Assembly: GCA_001791275.1 (NCBI GenBank)
Contig: MGEH01000004.1
Coordinates: 1-38,904, forward strand
From: Candidatus Uhrbacteria bacterium RIFCSPHIGHO2_12_FULL_60_25
GTDB taxonomy: Bacteria > Patescibacteriota > Patescibacteriia > 2-12-FULL-60-25
Reading direction: 5' to 3'
Length of the DNA stretch: 38,904 nucleotides
Part shown: positions 10,705 through 37,277 of the stretch, piece by piece
How positions within the stretch are numbered: the stretch's first letter is position 1
How the letters are laid out: each line of letters begins with the position of its first letter
Made by a program: the position numbers and the translations under genes
Notes under the pieces: generated by a model
The model's database searches: none
Seen by the model: the letters and a program-made list of their open reading frames with translations, nothing else
Told to the model about the DNA's origin: nothing

Positions 10705-11645
10705 GCTACCAGGGTCGGGTCCAGTCTGCCCGTGAAGCAATTCTCCAGACCGTGGCGTATTTCGACGCGATCGACTACGCGCCCACGTGGACCGAGTGCG
10801 CCTCGTGGTTCGAGTGGTCCGGAGCGCATGGGTTTGAATACGACGCACCGCCAACCGTTCCGGAACTCGTCTCGGCGCGTGACGGGCTTGTCCACGACGG
10901 ACGCCTCGAGTCCGGGTTCGGCCGCATCGCGCTCCATGGGCGGCTCGCGCGGCTCGCGTTGCTCGCGATGGAGCGGACCGCGCTCTTCCCGCGAAAAGTC
11001 CGGCGCGCCCGTTCGGTCGCGCGTTGGCTCCTCCGGAATCCGAACGTCCGATATGTCGCGCTCGCAAACACCACGGCACTCGCCCACGCCCGCGACCTTG
11101 GTGACCTGGATTTTTTCGTCGTGGTTCGCGCAGGGACAATCTGGTCCTCGCGACTCCTCGGGTCCGGCGTGTATAAACTTCTCGGCCGCCTCCCGGGTCA
11201 CACGGACAAACAGGACGCCGTGTGCCTTTCATACTTCGTCGCGGATGACGCCCTCGATCTCTCGAGTCACATGCTTCCGGGCGATGATCCATACTTCCGG
11301 TACTGGTTTTTGTCGCTCCTGCCCCTCGCGGACGACGGCGTCGGGAAATCGCTCTGGGACGCGAATCGCGCGCTCATCTCGCGTCACCCGCGCGCGGAAC
11401 GGTGGATGCTCACGCCCGATCTCACAGTTACACGTCCACGCATCAGATGTATCGCGTCAGACGCGATCGAATCGCTCGCGCGTCGTTTCCAGCTCGGGTG
11501 GTTCCCGAAACAAATTGTCGAGCGTATGAACCGCGACACGTCCGTGATGGTGAACGACCACGTCCTCAAGTTCCACGTGGACGACGGACGCGAAGCATAC
11601 CGCGCGGCGTATCAGGAACGGCTGCGCGTCATGGGTCTCGTATGA
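10701..11645 (+). CDS. nucleotidyltransferase-like protein of unknown function
   Basis: 314 residues. Residues 115-140 (VALANTTALAHARDLGDLDFFVVV) resemble the polymerase-beta nucleotidyltransferase core, in which a G-S turn is followed by a D-x-D metal-binding strand. Here the D-L-D strand is present but the usual G-S before it is replaced by N-T, so activity is uncertain. The N-terminal third resembles a winged-helix arrangement. The gene overlaps the preceding and following genes by 4 nt each (ATGA), forming a three-gene unit that ends with an O-antigen-ligase-like protein. A role in surface-polymer metabolism is inferred from that context only. Confidence 0.7.
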   Translation: MSYQGRVQSAREAILQTVAYFDAIDYAPTWTECASWFEWSGAHGFEYDAPPTVPELVSARDGLVHDGRLESGFGRIALHGRLARLALLAMERTALFPRKVRRARSVARWLLRNPNVRYVALANTTALAHARDLGDLDFFVVVRAGTIWSSRLLGSGVYKLLGRLPGHTDKQDAVCLSYFVADDALDLSSHMLPGDDPYFRYWFLSLLPLADDGVGKSLWDANRALISRHPRAERWMLTPDLTVTRPRIRCIASDAIESLARRFQLGWFPKQIVERMNRDTSVMVNDHVLKFHVDDGREAYRAAYQERLRVMGLV

Positions 11646-12988
11646 CGCGAGTACGTCTCTTTGATGTCGCATGGCGACTTGCCATCCTCGCTCTCCCCTG
11701 GCAGACGCGGTGGATTTATCAGCAGGGGATGATCGGCGGCTCACTGTGGGAGCAGGGGACGGGGGCCACCTACTTGTCATGGAGCTTTGTGCTGATCGCG
11801 GTTTTTTTAAGTTTTTTGGTCGCGCGGCTTCAGAATCGGGAACCGGGAACATGGAACCGGGAACCGCTTCAGAAGGGCGGTCTCCGGTTCCCGGTTCCCC
11901 GTTCCCGGTTCCCGATCGCGCTCCTCGTCCTTCTCATCGTCTCTTTCTTCACAGCCTCACCCACGGCGACCAGCCTCTGGTGGCTTCACGTCGCAATCCT
12001 CACGTTGTTCGCGTGGACGCTGGTTCGAGCGCATGTCGACGTCACGCCTTGGTTCATCCTATCGCTCGTCCCGCACGCGGCGCTCGGCGTGTGGCAGTAC
12101 GCGGCGCAGGACATCACGGGATCGACCCTGCTAGGGATCGCGACGCAACACCCATGGACGTCCGGCGTCTCGGTCGTCGAACACGGCCTGTACCGCGTGC
12201 TCCGCGCGTACGGCGGGTTCCCGCACCCGAATATCCTCGGCGGGTGGCTTGCCGTCGGGTTGACGCTGCTCCCCGGTCTTGCGCGACGGTCACGGTCGAA
12301 CCCCGAGACGCTCGGTCTCGCGGCGTGCGCCGTCTTGTTTGCAACGGCGCTCGTGCTCACGTTCAGCCGAGGGGCATGGATCGCGGCCATCGTCGGGTTG
12401 ATCCTCGCGGCATGGTCGGTCGTGCGTACATCGCACGCTGATCAAGACCGTCAGGCCACGTGGCTCGTGCTTGCCGCGACGGTCGTCGCGGTCGCCGCCG
12501 GTCTCGCATCGCAGTGGGATCACGTGACGGCGCGCTTTACGCCGACGCTGCGTCTCGAACGCTGGTCCATCGAACAACGGTCGTACGCCGTCGAAGAGGG
12601 GTGGGATGCATTTTTGGCGCGTCCAATCGTCGGCTGGGGGCCTGGGAGCAGTCTCGTCGCCATCACGACAACGCGGCAGGCGAAGTTTTCGTCGCGTCTC
12701 ACGGTTCCACCGGAGCCGCCGCATTACGTACCGCTCGTTGCACTCATTGAGACGGGGATCGCAGGCGTGCTCGCGATGGCGTACCTCGCGTGGCGTTTGC
12801 TCCGTCCGGCTCTCGGTCGGGACCGATGGCGCACGTCTCTGCCCCTGCTTTCCGTGCTCGGTCTTCTCATGCTGACTGACCACTATCTCTGGACGTTGTG
12901 GGCGGGGCAGGCACTCGTGATGCTGGTCGTTGCAATGCTCATCACTCATGTCAGCATGAGCGAGCGTCCCTCCATAGTGTCATCCTGA
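11642..12988 (+). CDS. O-antigen ligase/polymerase-like (Wzy_C) membrane protein
   Basis: 448 residues from the ATG at 11642, which overlaps the previous stop as ATGA; the frame is open further upstream but that part reads as shadow. About ten membrane segments are visible. The family motifs GGFPHPNILGGWLAVGL and LTFSRGAWIAA are present, followed by a large extracytoplasmic loop with a GWGPGS stretch, as in Wzy_C O-antigen ligases or polymerases. These proteins transfer or polymerise lipid-linked glycans at the outer face of the membrane. An inverted heptamer array (11838-11913) is inserted in frame between early membrane segments. The last codons and stop come from a dispersed repeat. Polymerase versus ligase cannot be decided. 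Confidence 0.85.
   Translation: MTRVRLFDVAWRLAILALPWQTRWIYQQGMIGGSLWEQGTGATYLSWSFVLIAVFLSFLVARLQNREPGTWNREPLQKGGLRFPVPRSRFPIALLVLLIVSFFTASPTATSLWWLHVAILTLFAWTLVRAHVDVTPWFILSLVPHAALGVWQYAAQDITGSTLLGIATQHPWTSGVSVVEHGLYRVLRAYGGFPHPNILGGWLAVGLTLLPGLARRSRSNPETLGLAACAVLFATALVLTFSRGAWIAAIVGLILAAWSVVRTSHADQDRQATWLVLAATVVAVAAGLASQWDHVTARFTPTLRLERWSIEQRSYAVEEGWDAFLARPIVGWGPGSSLVAITTTRQAKFSSRLTVPPEPPHYVPLVALIETGIAGVLAMAYLAWRLLRPALGRDRWRTSLPLLSVLGLLMLTDHYLWTLWAGQALVMLVVAMLITHVSMSERPSIVSS
11838..11913. repeat. heptamer array in inverted arrangement inside a membrane protein gene
   Basis: Four near-perfect direct heptamers (GGGAACC and variants, 11838-11865) are followed after 20 nt by four inverted heptamers (GGTTCCC, 11886-11913). 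The array is translated in frame as a NREPGT...RFPVP stretch in a loop between membrane segments. Confidence 0.9.
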
Positions 12989-19723: not shown

Positions 19724-19742
19724 CAAGGGGTGTACACTGACC

Positions 19743-19770
19743 GGGAACCGGGAACGGGGAACCGGGAACG
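19743..19770 (+). repeat. four tandem heptamers abutting the ksgA start
   Basis: GGGAACC, GGGAACG, GGGAACC and GGGAACG follow one another exactly; three bases then separate the array from the ksgA ATG, in the place where a ribosome binding site would be. Confidence 0.95.
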
Positions 19771-29702: not shown

Positions 29703-32700
29703 ATGTCCATGATCGCGATCAAACATCGGTTCACGAAAGGGTTCAAGAAACTCGCCATCCTCTTCACGACCGCCAGCCTTGCCCTCGGCAACACGCTCGG
29801 CTACGTGGTGATCCCGCGACTCCTCCCAGGGCCGCAGGCGGCGTTGGCCTTTCAAGTAAATTCGAAGCCAGTAGGGATTGCAGCCGGGGAGCACCACAAC
29901 CTCGTACTTTTACAGAATGGCAGCGTTTGGTCCTGGGGCCTGAACGACAAAAAGCAGCTTGGGCTCTCCTTCCCCTACACGAATTTCAGTTTCAACGAAA
30001 GCCCACATCCAATTGATTTACTCACCGTACCCGCTAAGCAAGTGGCAGCAGGGGATCGTTTCAGCATGGCGCTTGCTACAAACGGCACCGTGTATGCGTG
30101 GGGGGAGGATACCTATGGCCAGATCGGTCAAGGGTGGGCAACCTCCTATATCGAGATGCCGCTACAAGTGAAAGATCCAACCGATCCCAGCGGGTTCCTC
30201 ACAAATGTGAAAGCAATTGCTGCAGGTAGCCAGACGGCATACGCATTAAAAAATGACGGTACGGTCTGGGCTTGGGGAAAGGGAACGGCCGGAGAAATCG
30301 GACATGGGTTATCGGGCAATAAGCCCTTTCCGACGCAAGTAATTACTCCATTTGGTTTCGGCCAACCATTGATGAACATCGTACAAATAGAAGCAGGCGG
30401 TTCACATGCACTGGCATTAGATTCACTAGGGTCAGTATGGGCATGGGGGGTAAATAGCGATGGTCAGTTGGGTCGCGGCACAGCTACACCATATGATACT
30501 TATGCAGAACCGGTGCTTAACCCCGCAGGAACTGACTATCTGACTGATGTTGAAAGGATCGGGACCGGAGGGGCCAGTTCATTCGCCATCGCGAGACCCG
30601 GCGGAACCGGAACGTCGATACTCTACGGCTGGGGCCTGAATATACTAGGTCAATTAGGGATGACAGCGAATACACCATTATATGAAGCACTCCCCAAACA
30701 GACGTCCTGCGGTGCGGCATGTAATGCCTGGTCCGTTGACAGTGGGGGAAACCATTCAGCGTTCATTGATGATTATGGGTCCGTTGGGATGGCCGGCTTG
30801 AATTTGTACGGTCAATTTGGCACTGGATCAACCTATGATTTCGGTAAGGGTTATTGGACTTATGGATTTGACAGTTATTACAATAATAACTTCATAAAAG
30901 TTGCTGCAGGGTTGGGCCACTCCCTCCTCCTTGATAATAATGGGAGAGTTTGGACGGCGGGTCGGAATGATGTTGGTCAAGTTGGCGACGGAACAACTGA
31001 CGACAGGCATAGCCCGGTAATCGTCCTCGAGGGTCCAACGGCTCAATACGTCATCCCCCCGGTCATCAGCCTGGGCCAACAGCACGGCGCGATGTTGCAG
31101 GAGGACGGGACCGTGCTCACGTGGGGTGATGGGGGCAGCGGCCAGTTGGGGAACGGAACGCAAATAGACAACCCAACGCCGAACAATGTGATTGATCCGT
31201 CCTCGCCCGGCGGATTACTTAAGAACGTGAAGCATGTAGCGGCAGGAGGCCACCACACCCTTGCGGCGATGAGCGACGGGACGGTACGCGCCTGGGGCCT
31301 GAACGCTGACGGTCAGGTCGGGCTTCCGCTCGCTACCGTCTTCACCACCGCACCCGTGAAAGTGTCTGATCCGAGCGATCCGAGCGGATTCCTCTCGGAC
31401 GTGAAGGCCGTGTACGCGGGATACAACTTCTCGGTAGCCCTGAAGAACAACGGGACGCTCTGGGCGTGGGGGGACAACCAGTCGAGCCAGTTGGGCATCG
31501 GCGTGGTGGGCGGTCCGCCTCACGTGAACCCGACCCAGGTCGTGGGCCTCACGAACGTCGTTGACATGGCAGCCGGAGGCTCCTTCGGCTTGGCACTCAC
31601 CGCCTCCGGCACGGTCTATGCTTGGGGTTCGAACGGGTATGGCGAACTCGGCATCGGGACTTTTGTCGGCCACGAATCGCCTGTCCAGGTGACGTCACTC
31701 TCGCAGATCCGGCAGATCTCGGCAGGGCCCACGCATGCCATTGCCTTGGATAACACAGGCGAGGTCTATGCGTGGGGGCGCAATGCCTACGGCCAGGTGG
31801 GTGACGGCACCCTGGCGAACAGTGATATGCCGGTCTCCGTCGTCGGCCTCATGAATGTCATCTCCGTTGCGGCAGGCGGCAGGCAGTTCAACTCCGGCCA
31901 CTCCTTGGCGCTCCTCGCCGACGGAACGATGAAAGCTTGGGGTCTGAACTCCTCCGGACAGCTTGGAGACGGGACGTTCACAAACCGGCTTACCCCGGTC
32001 CCAGTCGTCGGCCTCACGAACGTGAGGCCGCCCACCTGGGTGGAAGGCGGGCCCGTGTATCTCACGATCGCGGCAGGGGATACGTCCTCCATGGCGCTCA
32101 GTTCGCTCCACGGCTGGGGGGACAACTCGTCCGGACAGCTCGGCAACGGCACCTTCACGTCATCGCCGACCCCGGTAGAGGCGATCCTCCCACCGCCTCC
32201 GGCAGATACGACTGCACCGGAGATCTCCGAGGTGACCCTCGAGGCCGCGTCAACGTCAACCGCACGGATCGCGTGGCTCACGTCGGAACCGGCTTCATCA
32301 GTCGTTGACTACGGACTCACGGCCGCATACGGATCGACCGCGAACGGCTCAACAGACGTCTTTGGCCATCGCATGACCCTCACGGGCCTCTCCCCCAACA
32401 CCACGTACCACTACCGCGTGACATCGGCAGACGCGGCGAACAACGCGGCGCAATCGGAAGACCTCACCTTCACGACTGCCCCCCTCCCGTCCTCCTGCGT
32501 GGACCAGGACCAGGATGGCTTCGGCGCGAACGGGACCGACACGAGCACCTGTCCGGCCGGGCCAACTCCGGACTGCGACGACCTGAATCCCGCGAACAAC
32601 TCGGCCGCGCCTCCGGTCATCGATCCCTTGGCGGACGTTGACCCGACGGCTGTCATCGGCAATGGCGCCCAGATCGCCGCAGGAGCGCAGGTGAAAAAGA

Positions 32701-33077
32701 ACGTCGTGATCGGCCAGGGGGTGATCCTCGGCATCGACACGAGCGTGGATAAGGACTCGCAGGTGCTTGCCTGCTCCGTCCTGAAGACGGACGCGAAGCT
32801 CATGAAGCACGTGACCTTCGGCCCATCCTCCGTCCTCGGTCTGGACTCGAGCGTGGACAAGGATGCGGTCATCGGATCGTACGTCACGATCGGCGACCAG
32901 ACGGACATCGACAAGACCACGCACGTCGGTGACGATACGACGATCGGAAACAACACCCTCATCGACAAGGAGGTGACGATCGGCCAGAACGTCACGATCG
33001 GCAACGACGTGGAGGTCAAGAAGAACGCGGTCATTCCGAATGGGGCGGTGATCCCGGATGGAGCGACCGTCAACTAA
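29703..33077 (+). CDS. secreted protein: two RCC1 propellers, Fn3, Ca-binding segment and hexapeptide helix
   Basis: 1,124 residues. A signal peptide (basic, then AILFTTASLALGNTLGYV) opens the protein. Fourteen RCC1-type repeats follow, each near AAG-x-x-H-x-(L/F)AL-x-x-x-G-x-V-x-(A/S)WG-x-N-x-x-GQLG-x-G: seven in residues 55-440 and seven in 446-832, so two full seven-bladed propellers. An Fn3 domain (about 834-925), a DQDQDGFG/DCDDLNP calcium-binding stretch (about 932-962) and a left-handed beta-helix of VIG/VTIG-type hexapeptides (about 977-1124) end it. The first propeller is clearly more AT-rich than the rest. A cell-surface binding role is inferred. Confidence 0.9.
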   Translation: MSMIAIKHRFTKGFKKLAILFTTASLALGNTLGYVVIPRLLPGPQAALAFQVNSKPVGIAAGEHHNLVLLQNGSVWSWGLNDKKQLGLSFPYTNFSFNESPHPIDLLTVPAKQVAAGDRFSMALATNGTVYAWGEDTYGQIGQGWATSYIEMPLQVKDPTDPSGFLTNVKAIAAGSQTAYALKNDGTVWAWGKGTAGEIGHGLSGNKPFPTQVITPFGFGQPLMNIVQIEAGGSHALALDSLGSVWAWGVNSDGQLGRGTATPYDTYAEPVLNPAGTDYLTDVERIGTGGASSFAIARPGGTGTSILYGWGLNILGQLGMTANTPLYEALPKQTSCGAACNAWSVDSGGNHSAFIDDYGSVGMAGLNLYGQFGTGSTYDFGKGYWTYGFDSYYNNNFIKVAAGLGHSLLLDNNGRVWTAGRNDVGQVGDGTTDDRHSPVIVLEGPTAQYVIPPVISLGQQHGAMLQEDGTVLTWGDGGSGQLGNGTQIDNPTPNNVIDPSSPGGLLKNVKHVAAGGHHTLAAMSDGTVRAWGLNADGQVGLPLATVFTTAPVKVSDPSDPSGFLSDVKAVYAGYNFSVALKNNGTLWAWGDNQSSQLGIGVVGGPPHVNPTQVVGLTNVVDMAAGGSFGLALTASGTVYAWGSNGYGELGIGTFVGHESPVQVTSLSQIRQISAGPTHAIALDNTGEVYAWGRNAYGQVGDGTLANSDMPVSVVGLMNVISVAAGGRQFNSGHSLALLADGTMKAWGLNSSGQLGDGTFTNRLTPVPVVGLTNVRPPTWVEGGPVYLTIAAGDTSSMALSSLHGWGDNSSGQLGNGTFTSSPTPVEAILPPPPADTTAPEISEVTLEAASTSTARIAWLTSEPASSVVDYGLTAAYGSTANGSTDVFGHRMTLTGLSPNTTYHYRVTSADAANNAAQSEDLTFTTAPLPSSCVDQDQDGFGANGTDTSTCPAGPTPDCDDLNPANNSAAPPVIDPLADVDPTAVIGNGAQIAAGAQVKKNVVIGQGVILGIDTSVDKDSQVLACSVLKTDAKLMKHVTFGPSSVLGLDSSVDKDAVIGSYVTIGDQTDIDKTTHVGDDTTIGNNTLIDKEVTIGQNVTIGNDVEVKKNAVIPNGAVIPDGATVN

Positions 33078-33193: not shown

Positions 33194-33224
33194 TGTACGG
33201 GCGACGCGCTGCGTCGCCCGTACA
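33194..33224. repeat. perfect palindrome in the valS leader
   Basis: TGTACGGGCGACGC (33194-33207), loop of 3, and its exact complement (33211-33224). It lies 10 nt before the valS ATG. Confidence 0.9.
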
Positions 33225-33234
33225 TGTCAGCTCC

Positions 33235-35931
33235 ATGTCACGTTTTCAGGACCTGCCCAAGGCCTACGACGCGTCTTCCGTGGAAGACGCGATTTACGCG
33301 TCGTGGGAGATGTCGAACGCCTTTAACCCTGACAAGCTGCCCGGCACGCGTCCCGACCCGTACTGCATCGTGATGCCTCCACCGAATCGCACGGGGACGC
33401 TGCACGTGGGCCACGCAGTCATGCTCGCGATCGAGGACTTGATGATCCGGTTCCAGCGCATGCGTGGGAAGAAGGCGCTCTGGATTCCCGGCACGGACCA
33501 CGCGGCCATCGCCACACAGGTGAAAGTCGAGCAGCTCTTGCGCGAGCAGGGGATGAAGGACCCGAAGAAGGAACTTGGGCGGGAGAAATTCCTCGAGAAG
33601 GTCATCTCGTTCGCCGAAGAGTCTGCCGCGACGATCCGGAACCAGGTGCGAAAGATGGGGTCGTCGTGCGACTGGACGCGCGAGAAGTACACGCTGGACG
33701 CGGAACGCAACCGCGCCGTCGTCGAGATGTTCCGGCGCATGCACGAGGACGGGCTCATCGAGCGCGGAGATCGGATCGTAAACTGGGATCCCCAATCGAA
33801 GACGGTCGTTTCAGACGATGAAATTGTGTGGATCGATGAGAAGGCGCCGTTCTATACGTTCAAGTATGGTCCGTTTGAAATTGGGACGTCTCGTCCGGAA
33901 ACGAAGTTCGGAGATAAGTACGTCGTCATGCATCCGGAGGATCCGCGGTACGCGTCCTTCGAGCAGGGTCAGAAGATCGAGCTCGAGTGGATCAATGGTC
34001 CGATCACGGCGACAGTCGTCAAGGATTCCGTCATCGATCGTGAGTTCGGGACCGGCGTCATGACGATTACGCCCTGGCACGACAACGTGGACTACGAGCT
34101 GGCGGAACGGCATGCGCTCGACAGGGAGCAGATCATCGACTTGGAGGGCAGGTTGCTCCCGATCGCCGGAGAGTTCGCGGGCCTTCCGATCCTCGAAGCG
34201 CGCAAGAAGGTCGTGGAGAAGCTGAAACAGAAGGGGCTGCTCGTGAACGTCGACGAAAACTATGCGCACCGCATTGCCACGTCCCAGCGTGGAGGCGGGT
34301 TGATCGAGCCGCAGATATTGCGTCAGTGGTTCGTGCGCGTGACGAAGCCGTTCGCGCTCCGCCAGGACACGCTCGGGAAGTGGAAGAAGGGCGATCAGGT
34401 CACGTTGAAAGAGCTCATGCGCCATGCGGTCGAATCTGGGCAGACTAAGATTGTCCCGGAACGTTTCACGAAAATCTATTATCACTGGATCGACAACTTG
34501 CGCGACTGGTGCATCTCGCGGCAGATCTGGTTCGGGCATCGGATACCGGTGTGGTACCGGGAACCGGGAACCGGGAACGGGGAACCGGGAACGGGGAACC
34601 GGGAACCGGGAACCGGGAACGAGGAACCGGAAATCCGGGTCTCGGACGTGTCGCCGGGTGCGGGGTGGGATCAAGATCCTGACACGCTCGACACGTGGTT
34701 CTCATCAGGGCTGTGGACGTTTTCGACGCTTGGGTGGCCTGACGAGAAGGAATGGAATAAGAACCGCGCCTACCACCCCACGGCCGTCCTCGAAACGGGG
34801 TATGACATCCTATTTTTTTGGATTGCGCGCATGGTGCTCATGAGCGCGTACGCGCTTGGTGAGGTCCCATTCCGCGACGCCTACCTCCACGGACTCATTC
34901 GCGACGAACAGGGGCGAAAGATGTCCAAGTCCCTCGGGAACGTCATTGATCCTTTGGACGTGATCCCGAAGTACGGCACAGACGCCGTCCGCCTGTCCCT
35001 CGTGATGGGCACCACACCCGGGCAGGACGTGCGTCTCTCCGAGGCGAAGATCGAGGGGTTCAGGAATTTTACGAACAAGCTGTGGAATATTTCGAGGTTT
35101 ATATTGATGCAGATCGGGGAACCGGGAACCGGGAACCGGGAACCGAAAACGCTGGCGGATCGTTGGATCTTGTCGCGCCTCGACGAAGTCGCGGCGAGCG
35201 TCACGTCTAAAATCGAGAAATACGAGTTCTCGTCCGCCGGAGAGGAACTGCGCGACTACACGTGGGGCTACCTGGCGGACTGGTACCTCGAGATCGCGAA
35301 GGTCGAGAAGGGGAAGGACGCGATCCTCGCCCATCTTCTGCGTCATGTCCTTATCCTCTGGCATCCGTTCATGCCGTTTGTGACGGAGCACATTTGGAAG
35401 ACAGCCGGATTTGATGGGCAATTGATCGTCGCGTCTTGGTCACAAGTACGGGCGCAGCATGCTGCGCCCGTACAGGAATTCGAAGTATTGCGTCAGCTTG
35501 TGACGGACATGCGCCGTCTCCGCGCGGATCAGGGCGTCGAGGCGGCGAAGCAGGTCGAGATCGCGCTTGTCGCGTCTTCTGACGTGAAAAAGCTCGTCGA
35601 AGAGAACATGGAGGTCGTGAAGCATCTGGCGCGCGCGGCATCCGTCGCGTTCGTCGGCGCGGTCGCGTTCGGGTGGGCCACGACGGTCTCGGGGAGCGCT
35701 ACGATCGGACTGAATGTCGCAGGATCCGTCGACATCGTAAAAGAGAAGGACAAGGCACAGAAAGAGATCGATGCAACGCGCAAATACGTCGAGAGTTTGA
35801 ACGTCCAGCTTGCGAACGGGGAGTTCACGTCCAAGGCTCCGGCGTCGGTTATCTCCGGGATGAAGCTGAAATTGTCCGAAGCGGAGATGAAGTTGAAGAC
35901 GCTGGAAGAGAAGGTGAAAAGGTTGGGGTGA
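33235..35931 (+). CDS. valS: valyl-tRNA synthetase
   Basis: 898 residues from the ATG at 33235; the longer frame would translate the leader palindrome. The class I signature is PPPNRTGTLHVGHAV (about 48-62) and the KMSKS loop is KMSKSLGNVIDP (about 562). The CP1 editing domain with TPWHDNVDYELAERH and the GHRIPVWY and DTWFSSGLW motifs are intact, and the C-terminal coiled coil is complete. It charges tRNA-Val and edits mischarged Thr. Three repeat elements are translated in frame: heptamer arrays at 34559-34628 and 35117-35144, and a palindrome at 35446-35473. Each falls where family members vary in length, so the enzyme is probably active. Confidence 0.98.
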   Translation: MSRFQDLPKAYDASSVEDAIYASWEMSNAFNPDKLPGTRPDPYCIVMPPPNRTGTLHVGHAVMLAIEDLMIRFQRMRGKKALWIPGTDHAAIATQVKVEQLLREQGMKDPKKELGREKFLEKVISFAEESAATIRNQVRKMGSSCDWTREKYTLDAERNRAVVEMFRRMHEDGLIERGDRIVNWDPQSKTVVSDDEIVWIDEKAPFYTFKYGPFEIGTSRPETKFGDKYVVMHPEDPRYASFEQGQKIELEWINGPITATVVKDSVIDREFGTGVMTITPWHDNVDYELAERHALDREQIIDLEGRLLPIAGEFAGLPILEARKKVVEKLKQKGLLVNVDENYAHRIATSQRGGGLIEPQILRQWFVRVTKPFALRQDTLGKWKKGDQVTLKELMRHAVESGQTKIVPERFTKIYYHWIDNLRDWCISRQIWFGHRIPVWYREPGTGNGEPGTGNREPGTGNEEPEIRVSDVSPGAGWDQDPDTLDTWFSSGLWTFSTLGWPDEKEWNKNRAYHPTAVLETGYDILFFWIARMVLMSAYALGEVPFRDAYLHGLIRDEQGRKMSKSLGNVIDPLDVIPKYGTDAVRLSLVMGTTPGQDVRLSEAKIEGFRNFTNKLWNISRFILMQIGEPGTGNREPKTLADRWILSRLDEVAASVTSKIEKYEFSSAGEELRDYTWGYLADWYLEIAKVEKGKDAILAHLLRHVLILWHPFMPFVTEHIWKTAGFDGQLIVASWSQVRAQHAAPVQEFEVLRQLVTDMRRLRADQGVEAAKQVEIALVASSDVKKLVEENMEVVKHLARAASVAFVGAVAFGWATTVSGSATIGLNVAGSVDIVKEKDKAQKEIDATRKYVESLNVQLANGEFTSKAPASVISGMKLKLSEAEMKLKTLEEKVKRLG
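34559..34628 (+). repeat. ten tandem heptamers inside valS
   Basis: Nine perfect units of GGGAACC or GGGAACG and one AGGAACC run without interruption. They encode repeated REPGTGN/GEPGTGN heptapeptides between the GHRIPVWY motif and the DTWFSS motif. Confidence 0.97.
35117..35144 (+). repeat. four tandem heptamers inside valS
   Basis: Four perfect GGGAACC units encode GEPGTGNREP at the junction of the catalytic and anticodon-binding domains, just before LADRWILSRL. Confidence 0.95.
35446..35473. repeat. perfect 28-nt palindrome inside valS
   Basis: GTACGGGCGCAGCA (35446-35459) is followed directly by its exact complement (35460-35473). It is translated as VRAQHAAPVQ in the anticodon-binding domain. 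Confidence 0.95.
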
Positions 35932-35998: not shown

Positions 35999-36112
35999 GA
36001 CTGACGTATCCAGAGAGTGGAGATGCCAAGGGAACTGACCCGATGCTCCACCCGCAACCATCCGAAAGGAAAGGTGCGACCTTCAGCCCCGAAAGGGGAA
36101 AGATAATGAGTC
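35999..36112 (+). promoter_or_regulatory. SAM-I-like (S-box) riboswitch aptamer
   Basis: The conserved S-box elements occur in order: AGAGAGTGGAG (36012-36022), GGGAACTGACCC with GATG and CTCCAC closing P2 (kink-turn pattern), CCGCAACC, GGTGC as the P3 return strand, a CCCC-GAAA-GGGG P4 hairpin (36087-36098) and AAGATAATGAG closing P1. P1 is TATC/GATA plus GACT/AGTC with a small internal loop. J3/4 differs from the usual TAAATCC (here GACCTTC), so it may be a variant. It should sense S-adenosylmethionine; none of the genes after it is a recognised methionine or SAM gene. Confidence 0.72.
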
Positions 36113-36144: not shown

Positions 36145-36311
36145 TTAAAACGACTCATCTACAGGCGACGAACCATGCCCAGACCCCCCCTGTCTTTCCC
36201 CAAGGAATAAGGGGGTTTCTGATCCTTGGAGGAAGGGTCGGAGAAACGAGCGGATACGAACGCAAGGTTGGTTGAGTGTGGACATTCGACAACAGAAAAG
36301 GAGAAAAAATC

Positions 36312-37277
36312 ATGAATGCAACTGGATGGAATATGCACAGCGTCGTCGACATGGTCCCCATGGGCGACGCGGACCCCAAACTCTCGAAGGCCCTGCGGGT
36401 CGTCGAGGACCACGCCATGACAGCGCTGGGTCGTGAAATTGGAGACCTCGCAACTCTCAAACGACTTTCTACAAGCCCGCGGGCGGAGATCTCCCACCTG
36501 CGGGACCTGGGAAGACAGTTGAAGTTCGTCACGATTCCGTTCTCGTACCTCGATCCGGCGTCGTATGCAGACGAACCGGCCGAGACGCGGTGGGAAATCG
36601 CGACCTTCGTTCACGTCCTGTCTCCGATGTTCGACGTCTATGCGATGTGCCCGCTCGAGTACTACAGCTTGGCCAGGCACATCGCCGCGGTGGAGGACCT
36701 CCCCATCATGGTTCCGGAAGAGTACGTCCAGATCTTCCAGATGCTCGATATGTGCCTGCCTGTCTTTCGCGGGATCAGGCAGGACATCGCAGAGCTTCGC
36801 GAAAAGCTCGAGCTGAATATCCGCGCCCAGCAGGAGCGGGCCCGTATCCGGATGCTGGACCCCATGATGTTCGCGGTGCCGAAGACGAAGGGCATCCAGG
36901 ACGACGGTTTGGCGCTCATCGGCCCGGCCTGGGGTCCTGACCTCGACGATCTCCTCCTGCGGAACTTCGAGCTGAAGGCCAAACCCGAACAACGGCGGCT
37001 CATCGAGGAGTCGGTACGGGCAATGCTGGGCGATGGAGAGCGCGCCTTTGATCAGACGGATGTGGGGAGGCTGAACGTCGACCCCATCCTGCTGAACGAG
37101 GTGACACGCGACCATCGGGAGATCCGCGAGGACGTCCGACGATACCTCGAAGGTGACGGGTCAGTGCTGAACGCGCCGCCGATCAACGGACATGCCTACA
37201 CGCTGACGGACATCACCCGCGTCGGGCAGATCGCTCGTCGGAGCCTCGTCTATCTCCAGCGTCTTCATCGGGACTGA
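36312..37277 (+). CDS. unknown protein, first gene of the riboswitch-led cluster
   Basis: 321 residues from the ATG at 36312, with AAGGAG 8 nt upstream. It is soluble and mostly helical: an N-terminal region, a central helical region with EYYSLARHIAAVEDLP and a Glu/Arg-rich helix (about 165-190), and a C-terminal region. The C-terminal part (DPILLNEVT, then VRRYLEGD, then IARRSLVYLQRL) closely resembles the whole protein encoded at 37630, so this is a repeated module. No known domain was recognised. The gene lies after a SAM-I-like riboswitch and terminator and starts a run of five closely spaced genes. The motif GGACATTCGACAA lies just upstream (36280-36292), as it does before 37630. Confidence 0.8.
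   Translation: MNATGWNMHSVVDMVPMGDADPKLSKALRVVEDHAMTALGREIGDLATLKRLSTSPRAEISHLRDLGRQLKFVTIPFSYLDPASYADEPAETRWEIATFVHVLSPMFDVYAMCPLEYYSLARHIAAVEDLPIMVPEEYVQIFQMLDMCLPVFRGIRQDIAELREKLELNIRAQQERARIRMLDPMMFAVPKTKGIQDDGLALIGPAWGPDLDDLLLRNFELKAKPEQRRLIEESVRAMLGDGERAFDQTDVGRLNVDPILLNEVTRDHREIREDVRRYLEGDGSVLNAPPINGHAYTLTDITRVGQIARRSLVYLQRLHRD

Follow-up and report, generated by a model that had tools for sequence, protein, structure and literature searches.

An over-representation of heptanucleotide repeats in bacteria was noted as early as 2007, and to our knowledge no cause has been accepted. The GGGAATC and GGGGA(C/T)T repeats of Xanthomonas and Nostoc are G-rich heptamers that occur genome-wide in arrays of 2 to over 20 units, with a preference for four units, a heterogeneous last base and convergent pairs on opposite strands; in Xanthomonas 89-93% of them are intergenic and few lie on coding strands (PMC4692102). 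The TAACTGA direct repeats of marine Beggiatoaceae and others are found mostly just before start codons, contain stop codons when read in one orientation and hardly ever occur inverted (PMC4679880). Rickettsia palindromic elements are described as short palindromic repeats, ~150 bp sequence families, inserted in frame in many unrelated genes (Ogata et al. 2000, cited in PMC10969869). The P6b stem of the Nostoc tRNA-Leu intron bears degenerate heptanucleotide repeats on two pairing arms, which form a hairpin in a length-tolerant loop (PMC3488679), and genes of Borg elements carry translated tandem repeats that give rise to disordered protein stretches, the intragenic unit lengths being all divisible by three (PMC9879509). 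In the literature on Patescibacteria and the Candidate Phyla Radiation, we found no relevant report of heptamer or loop-inserted tandem repeats. The locus described here is a heptamer array translated within valS, the gene for valyl-tRNA synthetase (ValRS), in a 979-kb genome (37 contigs, 95% complete). The window, meaning the whole stretch of DNA analysed, comprises 38,904 nt (G000:C4:1-38904).

Two heptamer arrays within valS

The valS product is intact. Pfam matched PF00133 at E 9e-122 and found both the anticodon domain and the C-terminal arm, and the best PDB match is the ValRS of T. thermophilus (1gax, E 4e-180). The gene is nearest to valS of Candidatus Uhrbacteria and other Patescibacteria (65% identity, best segment), and its reading frame is open across array 1 (Table 1). 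The units of this array (34559-34628) read, in order, GGGAACC twice, GGGAACG, GGGAACC, GGGAACG, GGGAACC three times, GGGAACG and AGGAACC. These are nine clean heptamers and a tenth with a first-base change, in agreement with the initial annotation, which had placed ten tandem heptamers in frame in an essential enzyme. TRF gave a period of 7 and 11.9 copies over 34556-34639. With one mismatch allowed, GGGAACNGGGAAC matches the window 21 times, where shuffles predict 0.36 matches and not one of them attained 21. Three heptamers make one seven-residue repeat, as annotated, the translation being (GNREPGT)n on this strand and (GSRFPVP)n on the opposite one. The array DNA is stop-free on both strands in every frame. 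This property had been annotated correctly, but it is not special, as 1184 of the 2344 cyclic heptamers (50.5%) share it; a special design of the heptamer was rejected on this ground, half of all heptamers qualifying. On folding, one of the two valS arrays scarcely beat its shuffles (z -2.3) and the other was no better than they were (z -0.1).

Table 1. Positions of valS and of the heptamer arrays in the window
Feature	Position	Strand	Basis
valS, valyl-tRNA synthetase, 898 aa, host of two heptamer arrays	33235..35931	+	Pfam PF00133, PF08264, PF10458; best PDB match 1gax
Heptamer array 1 in valS, ten GGGAACN units and short partial flanking units, encoding REPGTGNGEPGTGNREPGTGNEEP	34556..34630	+	sequence, TRF, AlphaFold
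Heptamer array 2 in valS, four units, encoding GEPGTGNREP, in the loop between helices 603-627 and 640-661	35117..35145	+	TRF, alignments, AlphaFold
Convergent inverted pair: 4.9 units (+), 17 nt spacer, 4.4 units (-); inside ORF 11642-12988 (+)	11833..11914	.	TRF, array search
Single four-unit array, intergenic, 5 nt ahead of the next predicted ORF	19740..19769	+	array search

The structure of ValRS was modeled with AlphaFold from a 32-sequence alignment (mean pLDDT 84.5). The peptide of array 1 (residues 446-462) is the only segment of the model with pLDDT below 50, and it is predicted to form the tip of a beta-hairpin, between strands 439-442 and 466-469. From one relative to another, the stretch separating the anchors WFGHRIPVWY and DTLDTWFSS ranges from 39 to 163 residues, which bears out the annotated placement of the array in a loop of variable length. 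The present ValRS has 60, and its loop 1 holds 21 residues more than the short form of many close relatives. The loop of array 2 is no longer than in some array-free relatives (35 aa in L155), and this array may therefore have replaced sequence rather than lengthened it.

A heptamer array at this site is not unique to the present lineage: among the valS genes of 80 relatives, six have a lag-7 array in the corresponding loop, mostly of another sequence. One of the 80 has a lag-8 array there, and none has an array at the remaining lags tested. The rest of valS and its flanks show a lag-7 excess too, with 15 arrays versus 2-4 at other lags. In L143, a distant relative, the loop carries a GGGGAAC array that is the sole copy in that genome; repeats of the GACAACN type occupy the valS loop of two genomes, both of which carry them elsewhere as well. 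The valS of a further relative, L077, encodes repeat-like peptides in the same two loops, TSPQPSPSKGEG in loop 1 and HPEERSDEGSHLAARSEILRSAQND in loop 2. Thus, both valS loops seem open to several unrelated repeat families.

Three other features surround valS. A second dispersed repeat, palindromic (GTACGGGCG...CGCCCGTAC), has one copy just before the gene (33195-33223) and another translated within it as VRAQHAAPVQ (35446-35473); its ten strand-hits amount to five places in the stretches read. Directly upstream (29703-33077) is encoded a protein of 1124 aa in which RCC1-like repeats precede a fibronectin-like domain and hexapeptide repeats of the left-handed beta-helix type. Downstream, positions 36004-36109 resemble a SAM riboswitch (Rfam RF00162, 38 bits versus a gathering score of 44.4, E 3.6e-7) and lie upstream of ORF 36276-37277.

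Dispersal, size and pairing of the arrays in the genome

Two tandem units (GGGAACCGGGAACC), with one mismatch allowed, have 187 matches genome-wide, versus none for the reversed control. The stretches around these matches (269 kb, picked because they contain arrays) hold 60 arrays at 43 places on many contigs, four of these places being in the window. Of the four, the initial annotation names array 1 of valS, and it does not speak of a genome-wide family. Four units are preferred: a 27-nt core, counted from the first GGGAAC to the last, is present in about 40 of the 60 arrays. The core is usually preceded by C and followed by CG, and the commonest element, C(GGGAACN)3GGGAAC-CG, is about 30 nt long. 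This length of four units with their CG borders is divisible by three, which leaves most copies, taken as units, neutral to the reading frame. Among arrays of more than four units, those in coding DNA have 10 (valS, the degenerate unit included), 10, 10 and 7 units, with the exception of one of 5 in a pair; the noncoding ones have 5, 8, 9 and 20.

The pairs are polar. All 14 convergent pairs are in +/- order, with the G-rich arm first. They span 70-108 nt, and their spacers (9-25 nt) differ from pair to pair in sequence and length. For two of the hairpins the folding energies are -70 and -66 kcal/mol (z about -9). Within this genome, an arm resembles its own partner no more closely than it resembles arms of other pairs (p 0.43), and copying of arms within a pair was rejected here for that reason. 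A CCTGAGCGAAGTCGAAGG-type repeat is located inside or adjoining GGGAACC arrays of the same genome (G000) at C1:1374-1428 (L042), C19:6543-6597 (L056), C32:937-991 (L064), C22:6849 (L059) and C18:69736 (L055). In three places the array is thereby split into 2 + 2 units, which looks like the insertion of one family of repeats into the other.

With ORFs called by a simple home-made program, 35 of the 43 elements are wholly within predicted ORFs, as would be expected from the annotated ability of the heptamer to spread through genes without truncating them. A strong intergenic preference is absent, and the ORF share of the elements is indistinguishable from the coding fraction of 0.895 (p 0.13). 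The elements are present in conserved genes without breaking them, and the hosts include leuS, pheT, dnaE, dnaG, uvrB and those for thymidylate kinase, a Mur ligase, a UvrD-type helicase-nuclease, a class II ribonucleotide reductase, a LysRS-like class II synthetase and a pseudouridine synthase. Alignment to solved homologues places extra residues at the array in UvrB (between PV and QIDD), PheT, the LysRS-like protein and the editing domain of LeuRS; in the ribonucleotide reductase the array is beyond the part aligned to solved structures, and this case was left out of the insertions presented. Host alignments and ORF calls together document in-frame presence in many unrelated genes. Of 25 single elements, 19 have their G-rich strand in the coding sense (p 0.015), which favors the polar GNREPGT over GSRFPVP.

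Period and length in related genomes

A triple of GGGAACN occurs in one of 380 Patescibacteria genomes, which is the present one, and three genomes of the same genus gave no match to the array. Sampling of 15 relatives (800 kb in total) yielded 37 arrays at lag 7 and none at lags 4, 5, 6, 8, 10, 11 or 13; the 22 at lag 14 are largely a harmonic of lag 7. Nearly all of the lag-7 arrays belong to four genomes of the same family (G003, G009, G014 and G016). Their heptamers vary by genome and locus (AATTAAG, TGTAACC, TAATGAG, CGTACAA and others), and some recur at several loci of one genome. Their lengths peak at 27-33 nt, although shorter arrays were detectable, and control lags are near zero. 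The distribution does not fall from the shortest arrays, as would be expected of a slippage microsatellite. Where neighboring arrays clearly match each other, they are inverted. For GAGATNN the reversed-pattern control was not clean, as the reversed pattern itself matches arrays. One array of G009 (L237, 16644-16741; 98 nt) retains a period of 7 nt across its 14 units, the unit itself drifting from AAGAATT to AGGCTTT, and an inverted partner follows. On comparison of these sequences, the conserved feature looks to be period and length rather than sequence.

Origin of the arrays and comparison with known systems

We regard it as likely that an interspersed repeat phased in heptamers has multiplied in this genome and that the array in valS is one of its copies, in a model that combines several steps. 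The basic unit is about 30 nt and occurs alone or as two convergent arms which, with a spacer of 9-25 nt, make a strong hairpin. Copies would land nearly at random, and those in genes would persist where they fall in flexible loops or turns; they would be tolerated because the length of the common unit is divisible by three and neither of its strands has a stop. Later change of length within genes may tend to go by three heptamers (21 nt), judging by few cases, and array 1 of valS would be a grown copy (10 units = 4 + 6). The 7-nt step and the length of ~30 nt would be fixed by a generator, which might be replication slippage or template switching in 7-nt steps, plus copying between loci. We infer such a generator because relatives share period, length and pairing with other sequences. 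The array peptide is most likely a tolerated passenger and not a functional domain. A bolder version, in which a dedicated process of this family of Patescibacteria writes ~30-nt arrays of any sequence freely in coding DNA, stepping strictly by 7 nt and adding inverted partner arms, appears possible though doubtful; period and length would then be inherited rather than sequence, and essential proteins would gain disordered loops.

Other origins account for part of these observations. A non-autonomous hairpin element (MITE- or REP-like) that a transposase moves, with single arrays as half elements, would fit the genome-wide spread, the pairs with their CGG...CCG borders and in-frame insertion as described for Rickettsia palindromic elements (PMC10969869). 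We consider it unlikely, as many copies are single arms, the spacers vary among pairs in sequence and length, no clear target duplication was seen in the array flanks, and Y1 transposase (PF01797) has no match in this genome, where the controls were detected and completeness is 95%. RAYT mobilisation was rejected for the same absence of PF01797, and telomerase-like end addition by a reverse transcriptase was rejected as no PF00078 is present in the genome. Local microsatellite growth, in which each array would stem from its own slippage on a chance 7-nt duplication while selection removed frame-breaking lengths, is less likely still. Relatives do bear different heptamers at different loci, the GGGGAAC array of L143 is confined to valS, and heptamers reportedly outnumber the other long units in many bacteria, 7 nt having been proposed as a polymerase contact length (PMC4679880). 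Yet the presence of one heptamer at 43 places in one genome of 380 requires copying between loci, the lengths peak at ~30 nt instead of declining from two units, and convergent pairs are not expected.

We find it very unlikely that a regulatory role, as G-quadruplex or RNA hairpin, is what keeps the repeats in place, the four units supplying four G-tracts. Four GGGAACC units fit G3N4 x4, and the same argument has been made for the GGGAATC repeats (PMC4692102), but the elements are mostly inside ORFs of varied function and not at gene starts or ends, and arrays of ~30 nt in relatives, such as those of AATTAAG or TAATGAG, are without G-tracts. Because the same period and size recur with unrelated sequences in related genomes, four G-tracts are not the general reason for the four-unit size, and the G-quadruplex was rejected as its cause. 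Least credible of all is the adoption of the array peptide as a working part of ValRS, for example in place of the cysteine-rich (zinc) knuckle of other ValRS. Array 1 aligns with a cysteine-rich stretch (CxxC...CxxC) of the T. thermophilus enzyme that is missing from this protein; however, in most close relatives the loop is short and lacks both cysteines and array, the peptide is predicted to be disordered, and the same peptide occurs in unrelated proteins.

With one period and size recurring in unrelated sequences, what has to be asked is which machinery works in seven-base steps. Tandem units of a length that three does not divide reside here inside core genes of a small genome, and the arrays constitute a natural experiment on which protein loops tolerate insertions. 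Dispersed G-rich heptamer repeats are already known from Xanthomonas and Nostoc, and what looks new here, at the level of sequence comparison, is the conserved period and length and the translated arrays. The likeness to the Xanthomonas and Nostoc repeats extends to the four-unit preference, the convergent opposite-strand pairs and the heterogeneous last base. Those repeats are G-rich, whereas relatives of the present genome reach the same size without G-tracts, and the intergenic location in Xanthomonas is set against 35 of 43 elements in ORFs here, mostly with the G-rich strand coding and in core enzymes (PMC4692102). Unlike the TAACTGA repeats, the present arrays are translated, stop-free and often in inverted pairs (PMC4679880). 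In-frame insertion in many unrelated genes is shared with the Rickettsia palindromic elements (PMC10969869), but here the inserts are tandem heptamers of ~30 nt per arm, with a sequence that varies among genomes. The Nostoc P6b repeats likewise place heptanucleotides on pairing arms in a length-tolerant loop, which is an RNA loop in an intron, whereas the loops occupied here are mostly those of proteins (PMC3488679). The Borg repeats, too, are translated into disordered stretches; their unit lengths are divisible by three, whereas the unit here is seven (PMC9879509).
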